A stretch of 10,448 nt of DNA. It comes from Candidatus Elarobacter sp. (GTDB taxonomy: Bacteria > Vulcanimicrobiota > Vulcanimicrobiia > Vulcanimicrobiales > Vulcanimicrobiaceae). Each line of letters opens with the position of its first letter. The stretch's first letter is position 1. The notes under the pieces were generated by a model. It was given only the letters and a program-made list of their open reading frames with translations. It searched no databases and had not been told where the DNA came from. The translations under genes were made by a program, and so were the position numbers. Of the stretch, positions 696 to 9,759 are shown one piece after another. The DNA lies in assembly GCA_030150085.1 (NCBI GenBank), contig JASLGJ010000008.1, positions 1 through 10,448 on the forward strand, in the 5' to 3' direction.

Positions 696-1610
696 GTGCT
701 GACCCCCGCCGCTCCCCCGCAAGCCGTCCCGGTCTACTCGGGCTTCGACTACGTCACCGTCGACGCCCGGCGCCGGCGCGTCTACGCCGCGCACTCGGGC
801 TCGCGCGCGCTGCTGATCGCCGACGCCGACTCGGGCTCGGTCGTGGGGCAGGTTCGCGTCGGGCAGGTGCACGGCGTCGCGGTCGATCCGGCCAGCGGTC
901 ACGTCTACGTCGGCACCGGCGACGGCCAGGTGAGCGAGGTCGACCCGGTCGCGCTCAAGGTGCTCGGCCGCCTCGACGTCGGCGGCTCGGTCGACGCGAT
1001 CGCCTACGACCCCGGCAACGGCCGCATCTACGCCGACGAGGACGACGGCACGAGGATCTGGGTGGTCGACGCGAAGACGTTCAAGCTGCTCAAGACGATC
1101 GCGATCCCCGGCCACAAGCCGGAGTACCTGGCGATCAATCCCAAGACGCACGAGGTCTACCAGAACATCGACTCGGACTCCGAGATCGCGGTGATCGACC
1201 CCGCCACGATGAGCGTGTCGCGCACGATCGCGACGCCCGAGATCAAGCACAACCACCCGCTGCAGTACGATCCCGGCTACGACCAGATCGTGGTCGCGGG
1301 CGGGGGCGTGATGAGCGCCTACGCACCCGGCGGCGCGAAGCTCGGCCAGCTCGCGGTGGGGCGCTTCGACCAGTGCGACCTCGACCCGACCCAGCACGTG
1401 ATCGCCTGCGCGGGCGACGGCGGGATCGCCCGCTTCACCCTGCGCCGCGGCGCGGCGCCGGCGCCGCTCGACCGGGTCGCGGTCGATCCCGGCGTCCACA
1501 CTAACGCGATCGATCCCAAGACGCACGCGGTGTTCGCGGTCTGGGGCGACCGCGACGGCAAGGGCGACTTCGTGCAGAAGTTCACCCCGCAGGCCGCGGC
1601 CGGCCCTTGA
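696..1610 (+). CDS. YVTN/YncE-like seven-bladed beta-propeller protein
   Basis: The proposed start is the GTG at 696, which gives 304 residues. The frame is open further upstream, but there it is an Arg-rich shadow of the HD-GYP gene, so the start must lie near 660-700; no clear Shine-Dalgarno marks it. The protein is about seven repeats of 35-42 residues with the pattern (V/A)x(D/N)P, x(V/I)Y, then a strand ending in a turn such as VDPVALKV or VIDPATMSV. This is the YVTN/40-residue propeller pattern found in YncE and related proteins. No signal peptide or lipobox is visible after this start, which is unusual because many relatives are exported. It has no catalytic motif; a binding or scaffold role is likely. 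Its TGA (1608-1610) lies inside the -35 element of the metY promoter. It shows no functional link to methionine synthesis. Confidence 0.72.
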   Translation: MLTPAAPPQAVPVYSGFDYVTVDARRRRVYAAHSGSRALLIADADSGSVVGQVRVGQVHGVAVDPASGHVYVGTGDGQVSEVDPVALKVLGRLDVGGSVDAIAYDPGNGRIYADEDDGTRIWVVDAKTFKLLKTIAIPGHKPEYLAINPKTHEVYQNIDSDSEIAVIDPATMSVSRTIATPEIKHNHPLQYDPGYDQIVVAGGGVMSAYAPGGAKLGQLAVGRFDQCDLDPTQHVIACAGDGGIARFTLRRGAAPAPLDRVAVDPGVHTNAIDPKTHAVFAVWGDRDGKGDFVQKFTPQAAAGP

Positions 1611-1636
1611 CGGGCCGCCCCATAGTCTGGTACGGT
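1607..1636 (+). promoter_or_regulatory. Promoter of the met leader/metY operon
   Basis: A -35 TTGACG (1607-1612), an 18-nt spacer and a -10 TACGGT (1631-1636) preceded by an extended-10 TGG (1628-1630). Exactly 7 nt separate the -10 from the leader ATG at 1644, so transcription should start at or next to the A of that ATG, giving a leaderless leader peptide. The -35 overlaps the stop codon of the propeller gene. The hom leader promoter at 5755-5784 has the same geometry. Confidence 0.72.
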
Positions 1637-1643
1637 GCCCCGC

Positions 1644-1715
1644 ATGGGCCTTCGCTGTACGGCGATGATGATGCGCGCCTCCCGCGAGGGACGGTGTAGC
1701 TCGTCGTCGCCCTGA
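1644..1715 (+). CDS. Methionine-type leader peptide (attenuator uORF)
   Basis: A 24-codon ORF (23 residues) starting ATG GGC CTT and ending CCC TGA. It has three consecutive Met codons (ATG x3, 1665-1673) directly before the regulatory helices, plus two Cys codons (TGT) at positions 5 and 18. The C-terminal part, SREGRCSSSSP, closely matches the end of the hom leader peptide (LREGPSASSSP). The match is strongest at the DNA level, which points to constraint on the RNA rather than the peptide. No Shine-Dalgarno precedes it; the promoter places +1 at the ATG. The proposed role is to couple translation across Met codons to formation of the terminator at 1739-1766 ahead of metY. Leader-peptide attenuation of amino acid operons is well known; this instance is inferred from sequence. 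The two TGT codons may add sensitivity to cysteine supply. Confidence 0.8.
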   Translation: MGLRCTAMMMRASREGRCSSSSP

Positions 1716-1766
1716 GAGGCGGCCCCGGGACTACAGCGGCCCTCGCCAACCGGCGGGGGCTTTTTT
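1661..1766 (+). promoter_or_regulatory. Transcription attenuator upstream of metY
   Basis: Three alternative RNA helices can be drawn by hand. A:C pairs the control-codon segment GGCGATGATGA (1661-1671) with TCGTCGTCGCC (1701-1711), 11 bp including two G-U pairs. B:D (antiterminator) pairs 1684-1699, starting GCGAGGG, with 1731-1746, ending CCCTCGC, giving 14 bp with two mismatches. D:E is the terminator at 1739-1760. B lies in the loop of A:C. A ribosome stalled on the ATG run should prevent A:C, free B and let B:D block the terminator. With Met available, A:C reforms and D:E terminates. The helices are visible in the sequence; the mechanism is inferred. No SAM riboswitch or T-box is recognisable here. 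Confidence 0.75.
1739..1766 (+). terminator. Rho-independent terminator of the met attenuator
   Basis: A 9-bp stem, GCCCTCGCC (1739-1747) with GGCGGGGGC (1752-1760), including one G-U pair. The loop is AACC and six T residues follow (1761-1766). It sits 38 nt before the metY ATG, so it acts as a conditional terminator inside the leader and not as the end of the propeller gene. Confidence 0.88.
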
Positions 1767-1804
1767 CGTACCTGCGCTCCACGCATTCGTGAAGGAGACC
1801 CACG

Positions 1805-3103
1805 ATGAGCAGCACCCTCGATCCCGCCGCGCAGCGCGGCTTCGACACCGTCGCGCTGCACGGCGGCCACGGCGGCGACCCGGCCACCAAGTCGCGCGCC
1901 GTGCCGATCTACCAGACGACCTCGTACACCTTCGACGACACCGCGCACGCCGAGCGGCTCTTCGCGCTGCAAGAGTTCGGCAACATCTACACCCGCATCA
2001 TGAACCCCACCACCGACGTGCTCGAGCAGCGGCTCGCGGCGCTCGAGGGCGGGGTCGGCGCGCTCGCGCTCGCCAGCGGCCAGGCCGCCAACGTGTACGC
2101 GATCCTCAACCTGGCGCGGGCCGGGGACCACGTCGTCAGCGCGGCGGCGATCTACGGCGGAACGCACAACGCGTTCGTCCACACCCTGCCGCGCTTCGGG
2201 ATCGAGACCACCCTGGTCGACGCGCGCGATCCGGCCAAGGTCGCGGCCGCGATCCGGCCTACCACCAAGGCGGTGTACGCCGAGACGATCAGCAACCCGC
2301 GCGTCGACGTGCTCGACGTCGAGGCGCTGGCGAAGGTCGCGCACGATGCGGGCATTCCGCTGGTCATCGACAACACGATCGCCACGCCGTACCTGCTGCG
2401 CCCGATCGAGTACGGCGCCGACGTCGTCGTTCACTCGGCGACCAAGTTCATCGGCGGCCACGGCACGACGATCGGCGGCGCGCTCGTCGACGCGGGTACC
2501 TTCGACTGGGCCAAGTCGGGCAAGTTCGCCGACTTCACCGAGCCCGACGCGTCGTACCACGGCGTGAAGTACGTCGAGGCGTTCGGCAACCTGGCCTACA
2601 TCATCAAGGCCCGGGTGCAGCTGCTGCGCGACATCGGCGCGGCGCTCTCGCCGTTCAACGCCTGGCTCTTGCTGCAGGGCATCGAGACGCTCGGGCTGCG
2701 GGTCGAGCGCCACAGCGCGAACGCGCTGCGCGTCGCGCAGGCGCTCAAGGACCATCCCAAGGTGCTGTGGGTGAGCTACCCGGGCCTGCCCGGCGACCCG
2801 GCCTACGACCTGGCGCGGAAGTATCTCCCCAAGGGCGCGGGCGCGGTGCTGTCGTTCGGCGTCAAGGGCGGGGCGAGCGCGGCGCGCGGGGTGATCGACC
2901 GGCTCGAGCTGTTCTCGCTGCTGGCCAACATCGGCGACGCCAAGTCGCTCGCGATCCATCCCGCCTCGACCACCCACCAGCAGCTCTCGCTGGCCGACCA
3001 GATCGCCTGCGGCGTGAGCGAGGACGGGATCCGGCTCTCGATCGGCCTGGAGTCGATCGACGACATCCTGGCCGACCTGACCGGCGCGCTCGACGCGGCC
3101 TAG
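1805..3103 (+). CDS. metY: O-acetylhomoserine sulfhydrylase (aminocarboxypropyltransferase)
   Basis: A 432-residue cytosolic PLP enzyme of the Cys/Met metabolism family, expected to convert O-acyl-L-homoserine plus sulfide to L-homocysteine. The start is supported by a strong Shine-Dalgarno, GAAGGAG (1791-1797), 7 nt before ATG. Visible motifs are YTR with NPT (residues 62-69; Tyr62 and Arg64 bind PLP phosphate of the partner subunit), SGQAA (91-95), YGGT (117-120), Asp189 in VIDNT, which contacts the pyridine nitrogen, and the Schiff-base lysine Lys214 in SATKFIGGHG. The full length and the SATKFIGGHGT context match MetY better than the roughly 380-residue MetB/MetC/MetZ enzymes. MetX follows 41 nt later, which fits an acylhomoserine substrate. 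Expression should depend on the upstream Met-codon attenuator. Confidence 0.95.
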   Translation: MSSTLDPAAQRGFDTVALHGGHGGDPATKSRAVPIYQTTSYTFDDTAHAERLFALQEFGNIYTRIMNPTTDVLEQRLAALEGGVGALALASGQAANVYAILNLARAGDHVVSAAAIYGGTHNAFVHTLPRFGIETTLVDARDPAKVAAAIRPTTKAVYAETISNPRVDVLDVEALAKVAHDAGIPLVIDNTIATPYLLRPIEYGADVVVHSATKFIGGHGTTIGGALVDAGTFDWAKSGKFADFTEPDASYHGVKYVEAFGNLAYIIKARVQLLRDIGAALSPFNAWLLLQGIETLGLRVERHSANALRVAQALKDHPKVLWVSYPGLPGDPAYDLARKYLPKGAGAVLSFGVKGGASAARGVIDRLELFSLLANIGDAKSLAIHPASTTHQQLSLADQIACGVSEDGIRLSIGLESIDDILADLTGALDAA

Positions 3104-3144
3104 CTCCGCTGGTTGCCGCAATCGCGGCGGCGCGCGAGACCGAC

Positions 3145-4137
3145 GTGCGGATCGGCGCGCTCGAGCTGAGCTCGGGCGCGACCCTTCCGGACGCCGTCCA
3201 GCGCGTCACGCTGCACGGCGCGGACCCGCTCCCCGACGGCTCGAACGTCGCCTTCGCCCCGCACGCGCTGACCGGCTCGTCGCGGGTGGCCGACTGGCGG
3301 GGCGGGCTGATCGGCCCGGGCGCGCTGTTCGACCCGGCGCGCTGGTGCGTGGTCGGGATCAACGCGCTGGGAAGCTGCTACGGTTCGACCGGGCCGCTCT
3401 CGCCCGCACCCGACGGCCGGCGCTGGGGCCCGCGCTTTCCGCTCGTCACGGTGGCCGACATGGTCGCCGCGCAGCGGCGCGCGCTGCGCGCGCTGGGCAT
3501 CGAGCGGCTGGCGGTCGTCATCGGCGGCTCGCTGGGCGGCTTCCAGGCGCTGCACTGGGCGCGCGCGCACCCGGACGAGGTCGGCCACGCGGTCGTGGCC
3601 GGCGCGTACGACCACCTGCGCGCGCAGGGGATCGCGCAGAACGCCAACGCGCGCGCCGCGATCGCGCTCGACCCGGCCTTCCGGCGCGGCTGGTACGCGA
3701 GCGCGCCGCGCGAGGGTTTGGGGCTGGCCCGCGCGATCGCGACGCTGACCTACAAGAGCGAAGCGCTGTTCGAGCGGCGCTTCGCCAACCGCCCCGACCG
3801 GCGCGGCGCGGCGCGCTTCGACGTGGAGGGCTATCTGGCGTACCAGGGCGAGCGCTTCGCCGAGCGGATCGACGCCAACGCCTACGTGGCGCTGACCCGC
3901 GCGATGGACCGCTTCGACCTGCGCGGCCGCGAACGGCCCGCCGGCGCGACCCGGCTGACGTTCGTCGGCATCGAAGGCGACCAGCTCTTCCCGCCCGAGC
4001 ACGTGCGGGCGTGCGCGCTGCGCTGGCGCGCGGCGGGCTGGAACGCGGTCTACCGCGAGCAGCGCAGCGACCACGGTCACGACGCCTTCCTGGCCGAGGC
4101 GGAAACCTTGGGAGCGCTGGTGCAACCAGCGGGATGA
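3145..4137 (+). CDS. metX: Homoserine O-acyltransferase (probable O-acetyltransferase)
   Basis: Alpha/beta-hydrolase-fold enzyme that acylates L-homoserine, normally with acetyl-CoA, to supply MetY. With the GTG start at 3145 it has 330 residues, slightly short for the family. No ATG lies nearby and the ribosome-binding signal is weak (GAG about 6 nt upstream), so translation may rely on coupling to metY; a CTG at 3109 is less likely. The catalytic triad is readable: Ser129 in GGSLGGFQALHWA, Asp279 in EGDQLFPPEH and His312 in DHGHDAF. The MetX motif SCYGSTGP (77-84) and the FPLVTVADMVAAQ segment are also present. MetX-family enzymes can use acetyl- or succinyl-CoA; acetyl is inferred from the MetY neighbour. 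The stop TGA overlaps the next gene's ATG (ATGA), suggesting translational coupling. Confidence 0.92.
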   Translation: MRIGALELSSGATLPDAVQRVTLHGADPLPDGSNVAFAPHALTGSSRVADWRGGLIGPGALFDPARWCVVGINALGSCYGSTGPLSPAPDGRRWGPRFPLVTVADMVAAQRRALRALGIERLAVVIGGSLGGFQALHWARAHPDEVGHAVVAGAYDHLRAQGIAQNANARAAIALDPAFRRGWYASAPREGLGLARAIATLTYKSEALFERRFANRPDRRGAARFDVEGYLAYQGERFAERIDANAYVALTRAMDRFDLRGRERPAGATRLTFVGIEGDQLFPPEHVRACALRWRAAGWNAVYREQRSDHGHDAFLAEAETLGALVQPAG

Positions 4138-5795
4138 TCCCGCTCTCGCACGTGCTCGCGTTCGCGCTCGCGCTCGCCGTGGCCGGCTGCGCGCACGGCG
4201 GCGGCGATGGCCTGGGCGCGAAGCCGCTGGTCGTCGTGCGCGCCATTGCGCCCGCGACGCTGGACCCGCTGCTGCTCTCGGGGCCGGCGGCCTCGGACGT
4301 CGGGCCGCTGCTGTTCTCGTACCTGCTCACCACCGATGCGAGCGGGCGGCTCGCGCCCGATCTGGCCGTGCGCGTGCCGTCGCTCGCCAACGGCGACATC
4401 GCGCCCGACGGGCGCACGATCACCTACCGCCTGCGGCGCGGGGTGCGCTGGCACGACGGCACGCCGTTCGGCGCGCGCGACGTCGTGGCGACCTACCGCG
4501 CGGTGATGGACGGGCGCAACCCCGTGCCCTCGCGGCTGGGCTTCGACCAGGTCGCCGAGATCCGCGCGCTCGGCGAGGCCGCCGTGCGGGTCCGGCTGCG
4601 CGCGCCGTTCGCGCCGTTCTTGAGCTATTTCTTCGCGGCCGAGAACTACCCGGTGCTGGCGGCGCACCTGCTGGCGCGGCACGGCGCGCTGCGGAACACG
4701 CCGCTCGACGACGCACCGGTCGGGACGGGCCCGTACCGGCTGCGCGCCTGGCGGCGCGGCGAGCTGCTCTCGCTCGCAGCGAATCCGAGCTACTTCCGCG
4801 GCGCGCCGCACGTCGCGCGGCTCGACCTGCGCTTCGCCGCCGACCCGCAGGCCGCCGCGAACGCGCTGCGCGCGGGCGACGCGCAGGCCCTGCTCGGGAT
4901 CGACCCGCTGGTCGCCCAGGAGCTGCGCGGCGACGCGCGCTTCGCGGTCACGGCGACCCCGGTGTTCGGCGTCGAGGAGCTGCTGTTCCAGACCCGCGAC
5001 CCCGCGCTGCGCGATCCCGCGGTGCGGCGGCGCATCGTCGCGGCGCTGCGCCTCGAGCGCGACGTTGCCGTCGCGAGCCGCGGGTTGCTCGACACGCGCG
5101 ATGCGAACGCGGGCTTGTGGACCTGGGCGACCGTGCCGCCGGCCTTGCCGGCGAACCGGCCGTTAAGTGCGCCGCGGTCGCGAGCCGCGGACACGCCCGC
5201 GCCTGCCGTGGCATCGCACCGCAGTCCGCCGCTGCCGGCGCGGCTGACGCTCGCCTACGACGGCTCGCGCGTCCTCGACCGGGTCCTCGCCACCACGCTG
5301 CAGGACGATGCGCGAAGGGCCGGGCTGGCGCTCGTGCTGCGCGGCTATGCGCCGCAGCAGTTCGGCGCGACGGCCGACGCGCGCGGTCCGCTCGCGAGCG
5401 GGGCGTACCAGCTCGCGCTGCGGGCCGAGGTCACCGGCGCGGACCCCGAGACGTCGTGGCTGCTGGCCTGCGACCAGATCCCGCCGCCGGCCGGCTGGAA
5501 CTTCCCGCGCTGGTGCGCGCCCGAGGTCGACCGCGCCTTGCGCGCGGGCCTGAGCACGTTCGACCAGCGCCGCCGGGCCGCCGCGTACGCCGCGATCCAG
5601 CGCCGGGTCGCGCGCGAGGTGCCGTTCGTGCTGCTCTGGCGCGCGCGCTCGTTCGACGCCACCGTGGCCGGGCTGGAGCGGCCCGAGCGCAACCCGGACA
5701 GCGCGTTCCTGGGCGTCGAGCGCTGGCGGCTCGGTTCGATTTCGGCTCGCCCCCTTGCGCCCCGGCCGGTCGCCGTGGTACCGTTCGCCCCATGA
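4134..5795 (+). CDS. Peptide-type ABC substrate-binding lipoprotein (SBP_bac_5 family)
   Basis: 553 residues beginning MIPLSHVLAF, a hydrophobic signal segment ending in the lipobox VAGC, so Cys19 should be lipidated and the protein held on the outer face of the cytoplasmic membrane. Family 5 solute-binding features follow: the TLDPLLL segment near the mature start, YRLRRGVRWHDGTPF around residues 96-112, and VGTGPYRL around 195-202. The C-terminal half has WCAPEVDRALRAG and a final EVPFVLLW segment. Family members deliver oligopeptides, dipeptides or nickel to ABC importers. No permease or ATPase gene is in the window, so it is an orphan binding protein here. Its ATG overlaps the metX stop (ATGA), placing it in the met operon. 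Residues about 333-362 form a Pro/Ala/Arg-rich stretch not expected in the family. Its own TGA overlaps the ATG of the hom leader peptide. The ligand is unknown; Met-containing peptides are only a guess from context. Confidence 0.85.
   Translation: MIPLSHVLAFALALAVAGCAHGGGDGLGAKPLVVVRAIAPATLDPLLLSGPAASDVGPLLFSYLLTTDASGRLAPDLAVRVPSLANGDIAPDGRTITYRLRRGVRWHDGTPFGARDVVATYRAVMDGRNPVPSRLGFDQVAEIRALGEAAVRVRLRAPFAPFLSYFFAAENYPVLAAHLLARHGALRNTPLDDAPVGTGPYRLRAWRRGELLSLAANPSYFRGAPHVARLDLRFAADPQAAANALRAGDAQALLGIDPLVAQELRGDARFAVTATPVFGVEELLFQTRDPALRDPAVRRRIVAALRLERDVAVASRGLLDTRDANAGLWTWATVPPALPANRPLSAPRSRAADTPAPAVASHRSPPLPARLTLAYDGSRVLDRVLATTLQDDARRAGLALVLRGYAPQQFGATADARGPLASGAYQLALRAEVTGADPETSWLLACDQIPPPAGWNFPRWCAPEVDRALRAGLSTFDQRRRAAAYAAIQRRVAREVPFVLLWRARSFDATVAGLERPERNPDSAFLGVERWRLGSISARPLAPRPVAVVPFAP
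5070..5190 (+). repeat. Direct 14-nt repeat and hairpin inside the lipoprotein gene
   Basis: GTCGCGAGCCGCGG occurs at 5070-5083 and again at 5177-5190. The two copies are read in different frames (VASRG versus RSRAA), so protein conservation does not explain them. Between them is a perfect 7-bp hairpin, CGCCGGC-CTT-GCCGGCG (5137-5153), and a TTA Leu codon (5163-5165) that is rare in such GC-rich DNA. The block coincides with the atypical Pro/Ala/Arg-rich linker. It may be a small repeat insertion or a local duplication. Confidence 0.45.
5755..5784 (+). promoter_or_regulatory. Promoter of the hom leader/hom operon
   Basis: A -35 TTGCGC (5755-5760), an 18-nt spacer and a -10 TACCGT (5779-5784) preceded by an extended-10 TGG (5776-5778). 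The leader ATG at 5792 is exactly 7 nt after the -10, so the transcript should be leaderless. The promoter lies inside the last codons of the lipoprotein gene. Spacing and the TGGTAC core match the metY promoter at 1607-1636. Transcripts from the upstream metY operon can also run into this leader. Confidence 0.65.
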
Positions 5796-5878
5796 CCGCG
5801 CTGCCCATGATCGCTTCGATCATGACGACGACGATGACGACCCTCCGCGAGGGACCGTCCGCATCGTCGTCGCCCTGA
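5792..5878 (+). CDS. Threonine/methionine/isoleucine leader peptide (attenuator uORF)
   Basis: A 29-codon ORF (28 residues) with the peptide start MTALPMIASI, the control run MTTTMTT and the tail LREGPSASSSP. It holds six Thr, four Met and two Ile codons, the three products of the homoserine branch. The central run is ACG ACG ACG ATG ACG ACC (5825-5842). Of the Thr codons four are ACG, while hom itself uses about 13 ACC to 5 ACG; ACG is the codon read by the tRNA-Thr(CGU) encoded just after hom. Composition resembles the enterobacterial ThrL principle, but the sequence is unrelated. The ATG overlaps the stop of the lipoprotein gene (ATGA), so translation can begin by coupling on read-through mRNA as well as leaderless on mRNA from the promoter at 5755-5784. 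Confidence 0.85.
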   Translation: MTALPMIASIMTTTMTTLREGPSASSSP

Positions 5879-5929
5879 CGCGGCGCACACGATGACGAAG
5901 ACGGCCCTCGCGAAAGCGGGGGCCGTTTT
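5826..5929 (+). promoter_or_regulatory. Transcription attenuator upstream of hom
   Basis: It has the same helix plan as the metY leader. A:C pairs CGACGACGATG (5826-5836, the ACG control codons) with CATCGTCGTCG (5862-5872), 11 perfect bp. B:D pairs CGCGAGGG (5846-5853) and CCGTC (5855-5859) with GACGGCCCTCGCG (5900-5912), 13 bp with one bulged A. D:E is the terminator at 5901-5926. The block from GCGAGGG to the leader TGA is 32 nt in both leaders. The outer part of B:D changes on both sides between copies (TGTAG/CTACA versus CCGTC/GACGG), which is compensatory change supporting the helix. Stalling on scarce Thr-, Met- or Ile-tRNA should favour read-through into hom. Confidence 0.8.
5901..5929 (+). 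terminator. Rho-independent terminator of the hom attenuator
   Basis: An 11-bp stem, ACGGCCCTCGC (5901-5911) with GCGGGGGCCGT (5916-5926), including one G-U pair, closed by a GAAA tetraloop, with the T run TTTTC ending at 5930. The stem can be extended outward by GAAG/TTTC pairs. It lies 72 nt before the hom start and shares its 5' arm with the antiterminator. Confidence 0.9.
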
Positions 5930-6001
5930 CATATTCCGTTCCAATCGCCACGACGTCGTTCCGGCGCCGTCAGCATCGCAACCGCAACAGAAAGGCCCAC
6001 C

Positions 6002-7195
6002 GTGGAAACCGTCGCCCGCGTCCTGTGCTCGTCCGATTCCGTCCCCGTCGCGGCGGCCGGCACGACCGCGCGCCCGCGCGGCGTGGGCCTGCTGGGCTGC
6101 GGCACCGTCGGCGCGGGCGTGGCGCGGCGGCTGCTGGCTTCGCACCCGGGCCTGCTGCGCGCGATCGCGGTGCGCCGGCCGGAGAAGCCGCGCGCCGTCG
6201 CATGGGATTCGTACGCGAGCGATCCGTTCGCGCTGGTCGACGACCCGGCGCTCGGGGTGATCGTCGAGTGCATCGGCGGCCTGGGGCTGGCGCGCGAGCT
6301 GGTGCTGCGCGCGATCGCGCGCGGCAAGGACGTCGTCACCGCCAACAAGGACCTGATCGCGACCGAGGGCCCGTGGCTGGCGGCGTTCGCGGCCCGCACC
6401 GGCGCGTCGCTGTGCTACGAGGGCGCGGTCGGCGGCGCGATCCCGATCGTGCGCGCGCTCAGCGGCGCGCTGGCGGACGAGGACGTGCTCGAGGTGGGCG
6501 GGGTGCTCAACGGCACGACCAACTTCGTGCTCGACGCGATGGACGCCGGCGCCGAGTACGGCGAGGCGCTGGCCGAGGCGCAGCGGCTGGGCTTCGCCGA
6601 GGCCGACCCGCGCGCGGACGTCGACGGGCACGACGCGGCCCACAAGCTGGCGATCCTGGCCGGGCTGGCCTTCCGCCGCCCCGCGACCTCGCCCGCCATC
6701 GCGCGGCGCGGGATCGGCGCGCTCTCGGCCGCCGACGTGCGGGCCGGGGCGGAGCTGGGCCTGCGCCTCAAGCTGGTCGCGGTCGCGCGCCGGACCGCGG
6801 CCGGAATCGAGGCCGGCGTGACCCCGGCCTACGTGCCGGCCGGCCACCCCTTCGCCCAGCCGCGCGGGGCGGAAAACGTGGTCCGGGTCCGCGGCCGGGG
6901 CTGCGGGACGCTGACCTTCGGCGGCGCCGGGGCCGGCGGCGATGCGACCGCCTCGGCGGTGGTGGCCGACGTCCTGGCCGCGCTGGGCGCCCGCGAGCGG
7001 GTCGTGCCGGCTCTCGGCGGGGCCGAGGAGCTGGCGGTCCGGCCGCTGCGGGCGCCGGCCCTGATCCGCTTCGCCCAGGGGAGCGTGGTGACCGACGAGG
7101 CCGTCCCGCTGGACGCGCTGGAGGCGGCGGCCGGGACGTACCGGGCCGGGCGCGAGGTGCAGGCGGTGATCCCGCTCTGGACGGACGCGGCCTGA
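6002..7195 (+). CDS. hom: Homoserine dehydrogenase, lacking a C-terminal ACT domain
   Basis: 397 residues; reduces L-aspartate-4-semialdehyde to L-homoserine with NAD(P)H in the cytosol, the branch point to Met, Thr and Ile. GTG start with AGAAAGG 6 nt upstream; the first 26 residues extend beyond the usual N-terminus. The Rossmann motif GLLGCGTVGAG has Gly32, Gly34 and Gly37. The catalytic Lys116 lies in TANKDL. YEGAVGGAIPI and NGTTNF form the substrate domain, and DVDGHDAAHK contains the Asp211/Lys215 pair. After the catalytic domain only about 60 residues remain and they show no ACT-type sequence, whereas many bacterial monofunctional Hom proteins of about 430 residues end in an ACT domain for Thr feedback. 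Control by the upstream attenuator may compensate. tRNA-Thr(CGU) follows 97 nt downstream with no terminator between. Confidence 0.95.
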   Translation: METVARVLCSSDSVPVAAAGTTARPRGVGLLGCGTVGAGVARRLLASHPGLLRAIAVRRPEKPRAVAWDSYASDPFALVDDPALGVIVECIGGLGLARELVLRAIARGKDVVTANKDLIATEGPWLAAFAARTGASLCYEGAVGGAIPIVRALSGALADEDVLEVGGVLNGTTNFVLDAMDAGAEYGEALAEAQRLGFAEADPRADVDGHDAAHKLAILAGLAFRRPATSPAIARRGIGALSAADVRAGAELGLRLKLVAVARRTAAGIEAGVTPAYVPAGHPFAQPRGAENVVRVRGRGCGTLTFGGAGAGGDATASAVVADVLAALGARERVVPALGGAEELAVRPLRAPALIRFAQGSVVTDEAVPLDALEAAAGTYRAGREVQAVIPLWTDAA

Positions 7196-7218: not shown

Positions 7219-7296
7219 GAGAGCGGCTGCCGGCGCGCGAACCGGTGTCGGTCGCTCTCGGCCCAGCCCGGCCGGGACACCGGCGCCCGAGCGCCG
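7219..7296 (+). promoter_or_regulatory. Overlapping hairpins between hom and tRNA-Thr
   Basis: GAGAGCGGCTG (7219-7229) can pair with CGGTCGCTCTC (7249-7259), 11 bp with two G-U pairs, extended inward by CCGG/CCGG. Alternatively CCGGTGTC (7242-7249) pairs with GACACCGG (7276-7283). These two structures share bases and exclude each other. A third hairpin, CGGCGC-CCGA-GCGCCG (7281-7296), reaches into the tRNA acceptor strand. There is no T run, so this is not a terminator. It may serve tRNA processing or be a by-product of GC-rich sequence. Confidence 0.4.
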
Positions 7297-7368
7297 ACGT
7301 AGCTCAGTTGGTAGAGCAGCTGATTCGTAATCAGCAGGTCGCCGGTTCGAGTCCGGCCGTCGGCTCCA
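7293..7368 (+). tRNA. tRNA-Thr (anticodon CGU)
   Basis: A complete 76-nt cloverleaf with encoded CCA. The acceptor is GCCGACG (7293-7299) with CGTCGGC (7358-7364). The D stem is GCTC/GAGC around AGTTGGTA. The anticodon stem is GCTGA (7319-7323) with TCAGC (7331-7335), and the loop TTCGTAA puts CGT at 7326-7328. The variable loop is AGGTC. The T arm is GCCGG-TTCGAGT-CCGGC (7341-7357). The discriminator is T7365, then CCA. Anticodon CGU reads only ACG, the main Thr codon of the leader peptide ahead of hom. No convincing promoter lies in the 97-nt gap after hom; a weak TGAGGC-17-TAGGAG (7193-7221) is the best candidate. Co-transcription with hom is therefore likely. Confidence 0.97.
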
Positions 7369-7654: not shown

Positions 7655-8644
7655 CTATACCACCCAGCGCAGGCTGCAAGCGCCCCACGTCCAGCCCGCG
7701 CCGAAGCTCGCCAGCACGATGCGCTGACCGGGGCGAATGTCGTTCCCGCGCACCTTTTCGTCCAGCAGGATCGGCACGGTCGCGGCGACGGTGTTTCCGT
7801 AGCGCTCCAGGTTCGTCGGCAGCTTGACCGCTGGCAGTCCGAGCGCTGATTGGACGCTGGTCAGCAGTTTGCGCGAGGGCTGGTGCAGGATGAACCAGTC
7901 GACGTCGTCGGTCGTCAGCTCCGACTCGGCCAGCACCTCGCGGATCGAACGGGGAAAATAGCGCAGCGCGTTCTGCGCGACGCGCCGGCCGTCCATCGTG
8001 AAGCGGTCGCGCCGCTCGGCCAAAGCGTGCGCGTCGACGGGCCACTCCGCGCCTCCCGCCTCGACGGTGAGACCGAGGCGGTGTGTGCCGCCCGCGCCGC
8101 AGCGGATGCGCTCGATGCCCGGTACCGCGCTGGCCGAGACGACCGCCGCGCCCGCGCCGTCGCCGAAGAACACGTTGTCGCGGTGCTCGAAGTCGATGAT
8201 CGAAGAGATGGTGTCCGCTCCGATGACGAGTACGTGCTCGGCTCGGCCGGCGGCGATCGCATCGTGTGCCACACTCAAGCCGTAGAGAAATCCCGCGCAC
8301 GCGGCGTTGAGGTCGAATGCCGGAATTCCCTCGAGCTCGAGCTTCTCGTGCGCGATCGCCGCGCACGAAGGCACCTTGCGGTCGGGTGTCGTAGTCGCGA
8401 GCACCAACAGGCCGACGTCGTGCGGTTGCAGCCCGGCGGCACCGAGCGCTCTGCGGGCCGCAGCGACCGCCATGTCGGAGGTCGTTTCACCGGGCCGCGC
8501 GTAGCGCCGCTCGCGGAAGCCGAACAGTTCCTGCACGCGCTGCGGGTCTCCGCCCCAGCGCGCGGTCAACTCCGTGTTGAGCACCGTCCGCTCGGGCAGG
8601 TACGCGCCCGTTCCCGAGATGCGGGCATGACGCGGCGTCAGCAC
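7655..8644 (-). CDS. FabH-like 3-oxoacyl-ACP synthase III
   Basis: 329 residues, thiolase fold, full length for the KAS III family. The catalytic triad is intact: Cys116 in DLNAACAGF, His254 in FILHQPSRK and Asn284 in RYGNTVAA, matching Cys/His/Asn of E. coli FabH. The glycine-rich [11 protein letters not shown] and the C-terminal SFGAGWTWG motif are present. Two departures are HQPS in place of the usual HQAN and a specialised operon partner. It starts with GTG at 8644, overlapping the upstream acyl-CoA dehydrogenase stop by 7 nt (GTGCTGA), so translation is probably coupled. KAS III enzymes join acyl-CoA to malonyl-ACP; relatives also act as acyl transferases or ketone/quinolone-type synthases. 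The pairing with a dehydrogenase suggests supply or modification of a special starter acyl group more than housekeeping fatty acid synthesis. Codon use is less GC-biased than in the met block. Confidence 0.88.
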
Positions 8645-9759
8645 CGGCTGAGCTCCTGGTGCAGGATGTTCACGCGCTGGATGTCGCTCGTGCCGCCGGC
8701 GAGGCGCGTTCCCAGCGCGTCGAGCGCTTGGGTGGAGACCGCGCCGGTCATATAACCGGTGTGGCCGTGGACGAGCATGTTGGCTTGGGATGCCAGCACC
8801 AGCGACTCGCTGGCGACCAGCTTGGCGGTGGAGCAGGCCTGCACCAGCCGCGGGTCGTCGGCATCGACCTTCGCCAGCGCGTCGCGGGCCAGAGCGAGCG
8901 TGGTGTCGCGTCCGACGACGATGTCGGTCAGGTGGCGCTGGACGTATTGGTGCCTGATGATCGGCTGGCCGAACGCATGCCGCTCGCGGGCGTACGCGAT
9001 GGCGCTCTTCGCGATGCCGTCCATGACGCCGGCCGCCGCCATCGCGAAGAGCGCGCGATCGAGCGCGAGCGTCGCGTAGAGGGCACCGAGAGGCTGGCTC
9101 CGCTCGCCGATCAGGCGGTCCGCAGGCACCACGACGGCGTCGAGCGTGAAACCGCCGGTTGGGCTGTCGCGGTGGCCGATCAGATCCTCGGGCGCTTCGA
9201 ATGCCGCGCCGTCACGCGGTCTGTCGATCAGGAACAGACCGACGTGGCGCGAATCGCCGCCACCCGCGATGCGCGCCACGACCATCAGGACGTCGGCGAT
9301 CGGCGCGTTGGTGACGTGCGCTTTGGCGCCCGAGAGCAGGTAAGCTCCGGCCGCGGGCCGCGCGGTGGTGGTCAGAGCGCGCACGTCCGAGCCGCCCCCC
9401 GGTTCGGTGACGGCGGTCGAGCCGACCACGCCGCCGCCGCTCAGCAGCGGCACGAAGCGGCGGCGCTGCTCTTCGGTGCCGAAGCGCAACAGCAAGCGGA
9501 CCAGTCCGGCTTGCGAGATGAGCGAGATGCACAAGCCGATTCGCCCGCTGCACCGGCCCAGCTCGTAGAACGCGCCGCCGAGCGCGCTCCAGTCGCGGCC
9601 CTCGCCGCCGTACCGCTCCGGCACCGGGATGCGCCACAAGCCGTCGTTGCTGAGCAGCTCCCAGCCGCGGTAGTCGAACCCTTCGCGCGCCGTGCTGCCC
9701 GCGAGATGATTCCTGACCCGCTCGCCGAGCGCGCGGACGGAATGAGGCTTCTCGATCAT
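8638..9759 (-). CDS. Acyl-CoA dehydrogenase family flavoprotein with an atypical catalytic base
   Basis: 373 residues, standard length. ATG at 9759; no clear Shine-Dalgarno. Family motifs in order: [10 protein letters not shown] (46-54), the FAD/substrate motif [12 protein letters not shown] (114-125), [10 protein letters not shown] (258-267) and the C-terminal GGTSDIQR (355-362). In medium-chain-type enzymes the last motif is YEGTxxIQ, with the catalytic Glu. Here the Glu position is Gly355. The alternative helix-G position used by isovaleryl-CoA dehydrogenase (LDLER) is LALDR here, giving Asp234. It may use Asp234 as base, or act on an unusual acyl-CoA/acyl-ACP, or not be a classical dehydrogenase. 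It is the first gene of a two-gene operon with the overlapping KAS III gene. Confidence 0.9.

Follow-up and report, generated by a model that had tools for sequence, protein, structure and literature searches.

Introduction

Classical leader-peptide attenuators are known from the trp, thr, his, leu, ilv, and phe operons of proteobacteria. Here we analyze two candidate attenuators found in a 10,448-nucleotide (nt) stretch of contig JASLGJ010000008.1 from Candidatus Elarobacter sp. (assembly GCA_030150085.1, phylum Vulcanimicrobiota, or Eremiobacterota), referred to below as the window. One leader precedes the O-acetylhomoserine sulfhydrylase gene metY, which is followed by a metX-like gene, and the other precedes the homoserine dehydrogenase gene hom. 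Like the classical attenuators, they have a leader frame with codons for the pathway product, mutually exclusive antiterminator and terminator hairpins, and a three-arm logic. Unlike them, they have a predicted leaderless start, Met/Cys codons before metY and Thr/Met/Ile codons before a separate hom gene; they form two related copies in one neighborhood, belong to the phylum Vulcanimicrobiota, and match no leader family of Rfam at threshold.

Leaderless short frames with Cys codons are also a feature of the mycobacterial polycysteine attenuators, to judge by the title of Canestrari et al. (2020). That case is termed translation attenuation in the excerpt of PMC13236596, whereas the present leaders possess an intrinsic terminator/antiterminator pair and, in addition, Met, Thr, and Ile codons. 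The Corynebacterium ilvBNC leaders (the ilvB-II motif, in the relevant passage of PMC10272879) likewise combine a leader peptide with transcription attenuation of an amino-acid operon, and the title of Morbach et al., cited there, speaks of a leader peptide formed without a ribosome binding site. They differ in carrying branched-chain codons and in belonging to another phylum. Similar control-run leaders before two genes of one genome, hisZ and hisS*, are described for bacilli in the excerpt of PMC2965389; there both copies have the same codons (His), while here the copies differ in their control codons. A survey of Actinobacteria, as excerpted (PMC1262725), reports no conserved RNA structures ahead of the methionine or threonine operons in that group. 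Among the literature matches listed, there was no Met-codon attenuator ahead of methionine genes and no publication that we recognised as describing these leaders, most subscription journals being outside the coverage; a full-text search found no paper joining Eremiobacterota with leader peptides.

With a probability of roughly 85%, we take each of the two leaders to be a ribosome-mediated transcription attenuator with a leaderless peptide start, the two being most likely paralogous and tuned to Met/Cys and to Thr/Met/Ile, respectively. The sequences, their conservation, computed folds, codon content, and genome distribution point to the leaderless start, to stalling and termination, and to the shared ancestry. 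Judged by sequence, this is a known mechanism in a new form and a new place, a real, conserved, leaderless-looking pair.

The two leaders and their relatives

An earlier note, made from the window alone, had described both leaders by their promoter geometry, ATG, control-codon run, GCGAGGG, and CCCTCGC motifs, and all of these can be read base for base from the sequence (Table 1). Seven nucleotides separate TACGGT from the metY leader ATG at 1644, and seven separate TACCGT from the hom leader ATG at 5792; from GCGAGGG to the end of TGA there are 32 nt in both leaders, also as described. The assignment of the two as leader-peptide attenuators is backed by the geometry, by the computed folds (whole-leader z relative to chance, −3.66 for metY and −7.99 for hom), and by conservation in relatives. 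The note's statement that only the control codons differ goes too far: the two 32-nt blocks of the window match at 26 of 32 positions, and the leaders also diverge between block and terminator. Similarly, the block strings CGCGAGGGAC and TCGTCGTCGCCCTGA do occur in both window leaders, but among the 14 hom leaders described below they are exact only in that of the window, the other 13 mostly having the form GGCGAGGGC...TCGACGTCGGCGTAA. Common to the metY and hom types are the GCGAGGG-CCCTCGC pair and a similar, non-identical block.

A degenerate block pattern was scanned across a species-genome collection and gave 26 loci. Only one of them, L011 from the metagenome-assembled genome Eremiobacterota palsa_1490, is a true relative, with both CCCTCGC and TTTT within 90 bases downstream; L012 has TTTT alone. 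The genome of L011 (G001) then served as the entry point to a search of 149 genomes from the phylum. Thirteen metY-type leaders (window, G001, and G119-G129, the one in G122 preceding metX) and 14 hom-type leaders (window, G001, G092, G093, and G120-G129) were identified, and 12 genomes carry both types. The hom gene of the window is 74-78% identical to those of G001 and G120-G129. For metY, the window shares 79-81% identity with the best counterparts in G001, G120, G121, and G123-G129 (partial in G125) and 73% with that of G119; G122 contains only a distant metY homolog (55%). A TTGAC motif and a −10 box at matching distance lie upstream of all 13 metY-type leaders, and GCGAGGG and CCCTCGC are almost invariant across the leader alignments.

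A short frame with a product-matched codon run lies between promoter and terminator in every one of the 27 leaders. The 13 metY peptides contain 40 Met (Met1 left out) and 31 Cys residues, and the 14 hom peptides contain 105 Thr, 27 Met, and 22 Ile. The codons chosen are ones used less by the metY and hom genes of the window: ACG makes up 71 of 105 Thr codons in hom leaders versus 13 of 46 in the genes (Fisher p = 1.4e-5, only a guide, the leaders being related), UGU 26 of 31 Cys codons in metY leaders versus none of 6, and AUU 13 of 22 Ile codons in hom leaders versus 1 of 39. The leader stop is 29 nt after the start of GCGAGGG in 22 leaders. The remaining five, all of metY type (G119, G120, G122, G124, and G126), terminate at a UAG within GTGTAG, at a distance of only 13 nt, which in G119 depends on the chosen anchor. 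The block itself is shorter in G119, and in the other four it is translated in another frame with the RNA block kept; since the block persists when read in another frame, it is the RNA block, not the peptide tail, that is conserved.

The leader AUG is found 6-9 nt past the −10 box in all 26 leaders with upstream sequence (the hom leader of G124 is cut by the contig end), and therefore the leader mRNA, its start placed by prediction, is probably leaderless. A search pattern for starts of this type occurs at 17 places in G120 and 21 in G001, and its reversed version at 2 and 4, respectively. Many of the 30 places inspected, out of 38, begin longer open frames, and leaderless mRNA may be common in the Vulcanimicrobiota genomes studied.

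Predicted switching mechanism

When the amino acid is ample, the translating ribosome would pass the control codons, reach the stop, and cover GCGAGGG. CCCTCGC would then pair with GGCGGGGG as a terminator, leaving metY or hom untranscribed. When charged tRNA-Met/Cys (metY) or tRNA-Thr/Met/Ile (hom) is scarce, the ribosome would stall on the control run, so that GCGAGGG and the following sequence remain accessible and pair with CCCTCGC to give a hairpin about 65 nt long; no terminator would form and the gene would be made. In the absence of a ribosome, the control run is expected to pair with UCGUCG of the block, thereby occupying GCGAGGG and allowing the terminator to form.

With the stretch between GCGAGGG and the terminator 5' arm, both included, left unoccupied, the antiterminator has a computed probability of at least 0.85 in 26 of the 27 leaders. 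The terminator reaches at least 0.85 in all 27 with a ribosome at the stop, and at least 0.70 in 25 as free RNA, where the control region and the block share at least 15 expected pairs in 23 leaders. A ribosome mask moved codon by codon along 26 leaders (G119 was left out) gave, in every one, a best antiterminator probability of 0.85-1.00 over the control codons and 0.0 at the stop; the antiterminator is switched off at, or shortly past, the end of the control run.

In the hom leader of G123 (L060), the terminator arms are swapped (CCCCCGCC...GGCGAGGG), as if inverted, which introduces a mismatch into the antiterminator, whose probability is 0.85. The metY leader of G129 (L089) has GGGTTGG, GCAACCC, and GGGTTGC, the change in the shared arm being matched on both the antiterminator and the terminator sides. 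In the metY leader of G127, the terminator side is already TTGC, forming G-U pairs.

Probable shared ancestry of the leader types

The metY and hom leaders are very probably paralogous, from one ancestor, as the earlier note had supposed. A covariance model of the 13 metY leaders alone (R1), searched against 51 sources totalling 205 kb, finds all 14 hom leaders at 39.3-56.9 bits, and the next match, at 24.9 bits, is a metY leader of another family (G077). The window hom leader scores 48.2 bits (E 1.5e-9 over the 205 kb, E-values being rough). In the 25 nt after GCGAGGG, a mean of 15.0 positions are identical over 168 metY-hom pairs (12 by 14, with G119 left out), versus 6.7 when shuffled. The hairpin GGCCCTCGCC-N3-8-GGCGRGGGCC, searched in 17 genomes, occurs in 28 rows from 14 genomes, all of them at metY- or hom-type leaders, perfect palindromes being counted on both strands; the reversed-pattern control gave none, nor did G130-G132. 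With a looser pattern, 23 rows were obtained from 13 of the 17 genomes: 20 at leaders, 1 at a leader on the opposite strand, and 2 elsewhere.

A combined model (R2) run on the 149 genomes gives the 25 leaders that built it at least 59 bits, followed by the ssuA leaders of G124 (45.2) and G120 (38.8) and the hom leader of G110 (37.7). In the control sets, the top scores were 29.2 bits among 148 Actinomycetota and 31.8 among 150 Armatimonadota. None of the nine control-phylum loci inspected has a product-matched leader; one, L240, precedes a glutamate synthase-like gene, named from its printed start only. Within the phylum, matches other than leaders of this kind score at most 33.0 bits (L173). 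Noise thus tops out at about 33 bits, and the metY and hom leaders are therefore more alike than noise. Relatives do carry further copies ahead of amino-acid genes, the absence of which the note had named as a refutation.

Gene conversion, by which the metY leader would have overwritten the hom leader of the window, was considered and set aside: when the two blocks of one genome are compared, 26 of 32 positions agree in the window and equally in G121, within a range of 19-26 over 12 genomes.

In sister families, 11 of the 24 distinct hom loci scanned carry an apparently leaderless Met/Cys leader ahead of hom, for instance MFATTTAMMCSMCRMQMRTAWVVMESTV in G098. This count follows a promoter-based rule, under which the Cys-containing GTG frame of L079 was not counted and the remaining loci have no leader, two of them having little upstream sequence; most of these outgroup leaders had escaped a hairpin search that demanded a strict tail. 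The hom gene of G110 likewise has a Met/Cys leader. In 10 of the 11 sister-family genomes, hom and metY share a contig, with metY downstream; this does not hold for G061 or G110. In the hom tree (37 rows, the root being for drawing only), the 14 loci with Thr-type leaders group together in a single clade (100/100), whereas three changes are required for the Met/Cys type. The pattern fits an older hom-metY unit with a Met/Cys leader, the Thr-type leader having come with the split.

A tentative scenario, which we regard as quite possible, is that of a retunable cassette: an ancestral leaderless Met/Cys attenuator, which sister families retain before hom-metY, would have been duplicated when metY-metX and hom separated, the hom copy would have been retuned to Thr by AUG-to-ACG changes, and the phylum would broadly control its amino-acid and sulfur supply with attenuators of this leaderless type. 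Pairing between the control run and the UCGUCG block would survive such retuning, G-U becoming G-C. A free interchange of AUG and ACG in the control helix received half support. Replacing AUG by ACG in 12 metY leaders left 18.2 of 19.9 expected pairs, but replacement by GAC left 18.0; replacing ACG by AUG in the 14 hom leaders lowered the number from 17.8 to 13.2, while CTG retained 16.6.

Candidate attenuators ahead of other genes in the phylum

We inspected 37 more R2 matches with scores of 20-45 bits, a non-random sample. In 25 of them, a short frame is present and the gene that follows is one for amino-acid or sulfur metabolism or, in L178, for a peroxiredoxin. By eye, the codons suit the gene in 22 of these and are less clear in L178, L181, and L180, where a 110-amino-acid frame intervenes between the leader and a kinase-like frame. 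Among the others, one is at a contig end (L190) and 11 have no such site, two of them (L188 and L200) being opposite-strand matches at an apparent ilvC start. NCBIfam profiles applied to ten downstream genes confirmed ssuA, cysI (two), leuA, ilvB, thrC, a pheA-DAHP synthase fusion, and ilvC above the curated cut-offs; the peroxiredoxin match and a partial aspartate-kinase match were below theirs. Other downstream genes were named from their printed start or from the hom and metY searches. By its sequence features, the metY/hom pair belongs to a wider set of predicted attenuators that precede hom-metY, ssuA, cysI, leuA, ilvB, ilvC, pheA, and thrC.

Met/Cys leaders (for instance MLTAGSFVAMSMCCLLSRGSARIGMS) with terminators stand ahead of ssuA-type sulfonate transporter genes at L170, L171, L183, L187, L196, and L199, of which L170 alone was named by profile search. 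The ssuA leaders of G124 and G120 may represent a third branch of the metY/hom cassette. Ahead of cysI-type sulfite reductase genes, Met/Cys leaders (MLSVYAMMMCCISPLRGSA, MLLCCCLLMACPASVARRSASS) were observed at L174, L177, L201, and L203, the genes of L174 and L201 being profile-named. Product-matched leaders also precede leuA, ilvB, ilvC, pheA-DAHP synthase, thrC, and ilvE-like genes (L175, L184, L185, L202, L194, L195, L197, L186, L191, L227, and L230), the two ilvE-like cases being named from the printed protein start only. At L178 (G126), the Cys-rich leader MFETGRSAMCCCLCRPRTGRPGFSLA precedes a peroxiredoxin-like gene, which would be unusual as the target of an amino-acid attenuator.

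Contrary evidence and alternative explanations

Several results weigh against the proposed pair of paralogous attenuators. The ribosome mask has an assumed width (13 nt beyond the A-site codon start). For 11 of the 14 hom leaders, placing the last control codon in the A site already brings the antiterminator down to 0.14 or lower, since a ribosome stalled there would hide GCGAGGG. The G119 leader has a shifted register and gives 0.00 with the chosen anchor, its best fold still being an antiterminator hairpin, and the metY leaders of G126 and G129 prefer the antiterminator as free RNA. At equilibrium, RNA that is free from GCGAGGG to its end favors the terminator in 21 of 27 leaders; therefore the switch must be decided during transcription. 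Antiterminator covariation is weak: one pair with two-sided change in the metY set, reached by 75 of 500 shuffles, and one in the hom set, reached by 417 of 500, where a version slid by −3 columns has two. The terminator does better, with two pairs in each set, reached by 14 (metY) and 33 (hom) of 500 shuffles. A simple terminator scan detected the metY hairpin alone, with 1.0 expected in shuffles, and a sigma-70 scan gave no promoter, the −10 boxes fitting the consensus poorly. As for common ancestry, several intermediate families are without a leader by the promoter rule, and the similarity of the blocks could partly be convergence, UCGUCG being bound to pair with AUG/ACG runs.

The last point leads to the alternative that survives best, though we consider it unlikely, namely, that two attenuators with the same mechanism arose separately and converged on one terminator sequence and on a UCGUCG block. 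The exact hairpin occurs nowhere else in the 17 genomes, the metY-only model separates the hom leaders (39-57 bits) from the next match (24.9), and under the combined model two other leaders stay far below, ilvC of G001 at 23.1 bits and cysI of G120 at 20.9, all of which speak for descent, even though pairing with the control run constrains the block and other attenuators of the phylum, with other codons, match in layout and hardly in sequence.

An additional action in trans of the leader peptide or the terminated leader RNA has a published precedent, the peTrpL peptide of Sinorhizobium (excerpt of PMC7298713). We regard it as very unlikely for the present leaders, whose peptide tails differ between frames and offer no hint of a target.

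Neither leader has an Rfam match at gathering score, in agreement with the earlier view that this is not a named RNA family. A relaxed search produced sub-threshold matches only, the best being BjrC68, a Bradyrhizobiaceae small RNA, which covers the hom block and terminator (window positions 5855-5935) at 26.8 bits against a threshold of 39; Trp_leader reached 12.3 bits (threshold, 41). Genes such as metY and hom are elsewhere often targets of riboswitches or T-boxes, and both leaders are structured and terminator-ended, as an S-adenosylmethionine-type metabolite riboswitch or a T-box would be. Such a switch in place of a leader peptide is nevertheless highly improbable, as neither class is among the relaxed matches up to E 10 (11 per leader), and all 27 leaders have product-matched control codons in an open frame, including the four with the block in another frame. 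Plain terminators of the upstream genes accompanied by chance short frames are scarcely credible: gene-end terminators do score with the combined model (20-33 bits in the phylum, at most 31.8 in the control phyla), but here a promoter-like site stands between upstream gene and terminator, and 12 genomes preserve the product-matched codon runs, the fixed spacing, and the complementarity of GCGAGGG and CCCTCGC, scoring at least 59 bits with a model built from these leaders.

Genomic context

The coordinates of the leaders and neighboring genes are collected in Table 1. The stop codon of the substrate-binding protein gene and the start codon of the hom leader overlap (ATGA). The tRNA-Thr beyond hom decodes the ACG codons of the hom leader. 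As a constituent of the hom unit it was rejected: it recurs at L064, on the other strand, and is absent at the other 12 hom loci scanned. On the minus strand, at 7655-9759, a beta-ketoacyl-ACP synthase III-like gene lies beside an acyl-CoA dehydrogenase-like gene. Prolyl-carrier-protein and prodigiosin-pathway dehydrogenases are among the best profile matches of the latter, none of which reaches its cut-off. By these resemblances, the two genes might be part of a small natural-product cluster.

Table 1. Features of the metY and hom loci in the window
Feature	Position	Strand	Details
metY leader promoter, extended −10	1607..1636	+	TTGACG 1607-1612, 18-nt spacer, TACGGT 1631-1636 preceded by TGG
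metY leader peptide MGLRCTAMMMRASREGRCSSSSP, probably leaderless	1644..1715	+	Control codons Met8-10 and Cys5; stop TGA 1713-1715
metY block GCGAGGG...CCCTGA, predicted antiterminator 5' arm and control-codon partner	1684..1715	+	GCGAGGG 1684-1690
metY predicted antiterminator 3' arm CTACAGCGGCCCTCGC	1731..1746	+	Overlaps terminator 5' arm; alignment, folding
metY predicted intrinsic terminator GGCCCTCGCCAACCGGCGGGGGCT and T run	1738..1766	+	Hairpin 1738-1761, CCCTCGC 1740-1746 within 5' arm
metY, O-acetylhomoserine sulfhydrylase	1805..3103	+	NCBIfam TIGR01326, 665.5 bits, cut-off 495.1
metX-like homoserine O-acetyltransferase	3136..4137	+	NF001209/TIGR01392, 301.4/293.7 bits, both below curated cut-offs; 3136 is the beginning of the profile match, not a determined start
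Peptide/nickel-type ABC transporter substrate-binding protein	4134..5795	+	Best matches well below curated cut-offs
hom leader promoter, extended −10	5755..5784	+	TTGCGC 5755-5760, 18-nt spacer, TACCGT 5779-5784
hom leader peptide MTALPMIASIMTTTMTTLREGPSASSSP, probably leaderless	5792..5878	+	Control codons Thr/Met/Ile; stop 5876-5878
hom block GCGAGGG...CCCTGA, predicted antiterminator 5' arm	5847..5878	+	GCGAGGG 5847-5853
hom predicted antiterminator 3' arm GACGGCCCTCGC	5900..5911	+	Folding; CCCTCGC 5905-5911
hom predicted intrinsic terminator, upstream of gene	5897..5930	+	Hairpin by folding
hom, homoserine dehydrogenase	6002..7195	+	NCBIfam NF004976, 338.5 bits, cut-off 205
tRNA-Thr, anticodon CGU	7293-7368		Just downstream of hom

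Significance

To judge from the loci inspected, attenuation may be a general mode of amino-acid control in the phylum. In the window, two attenuator copies in one neighborhood appear to share their RNA and to read different amino acids. Relatives are available at several distances, so that the origin of such an attenuator and its retuning would be traceable.

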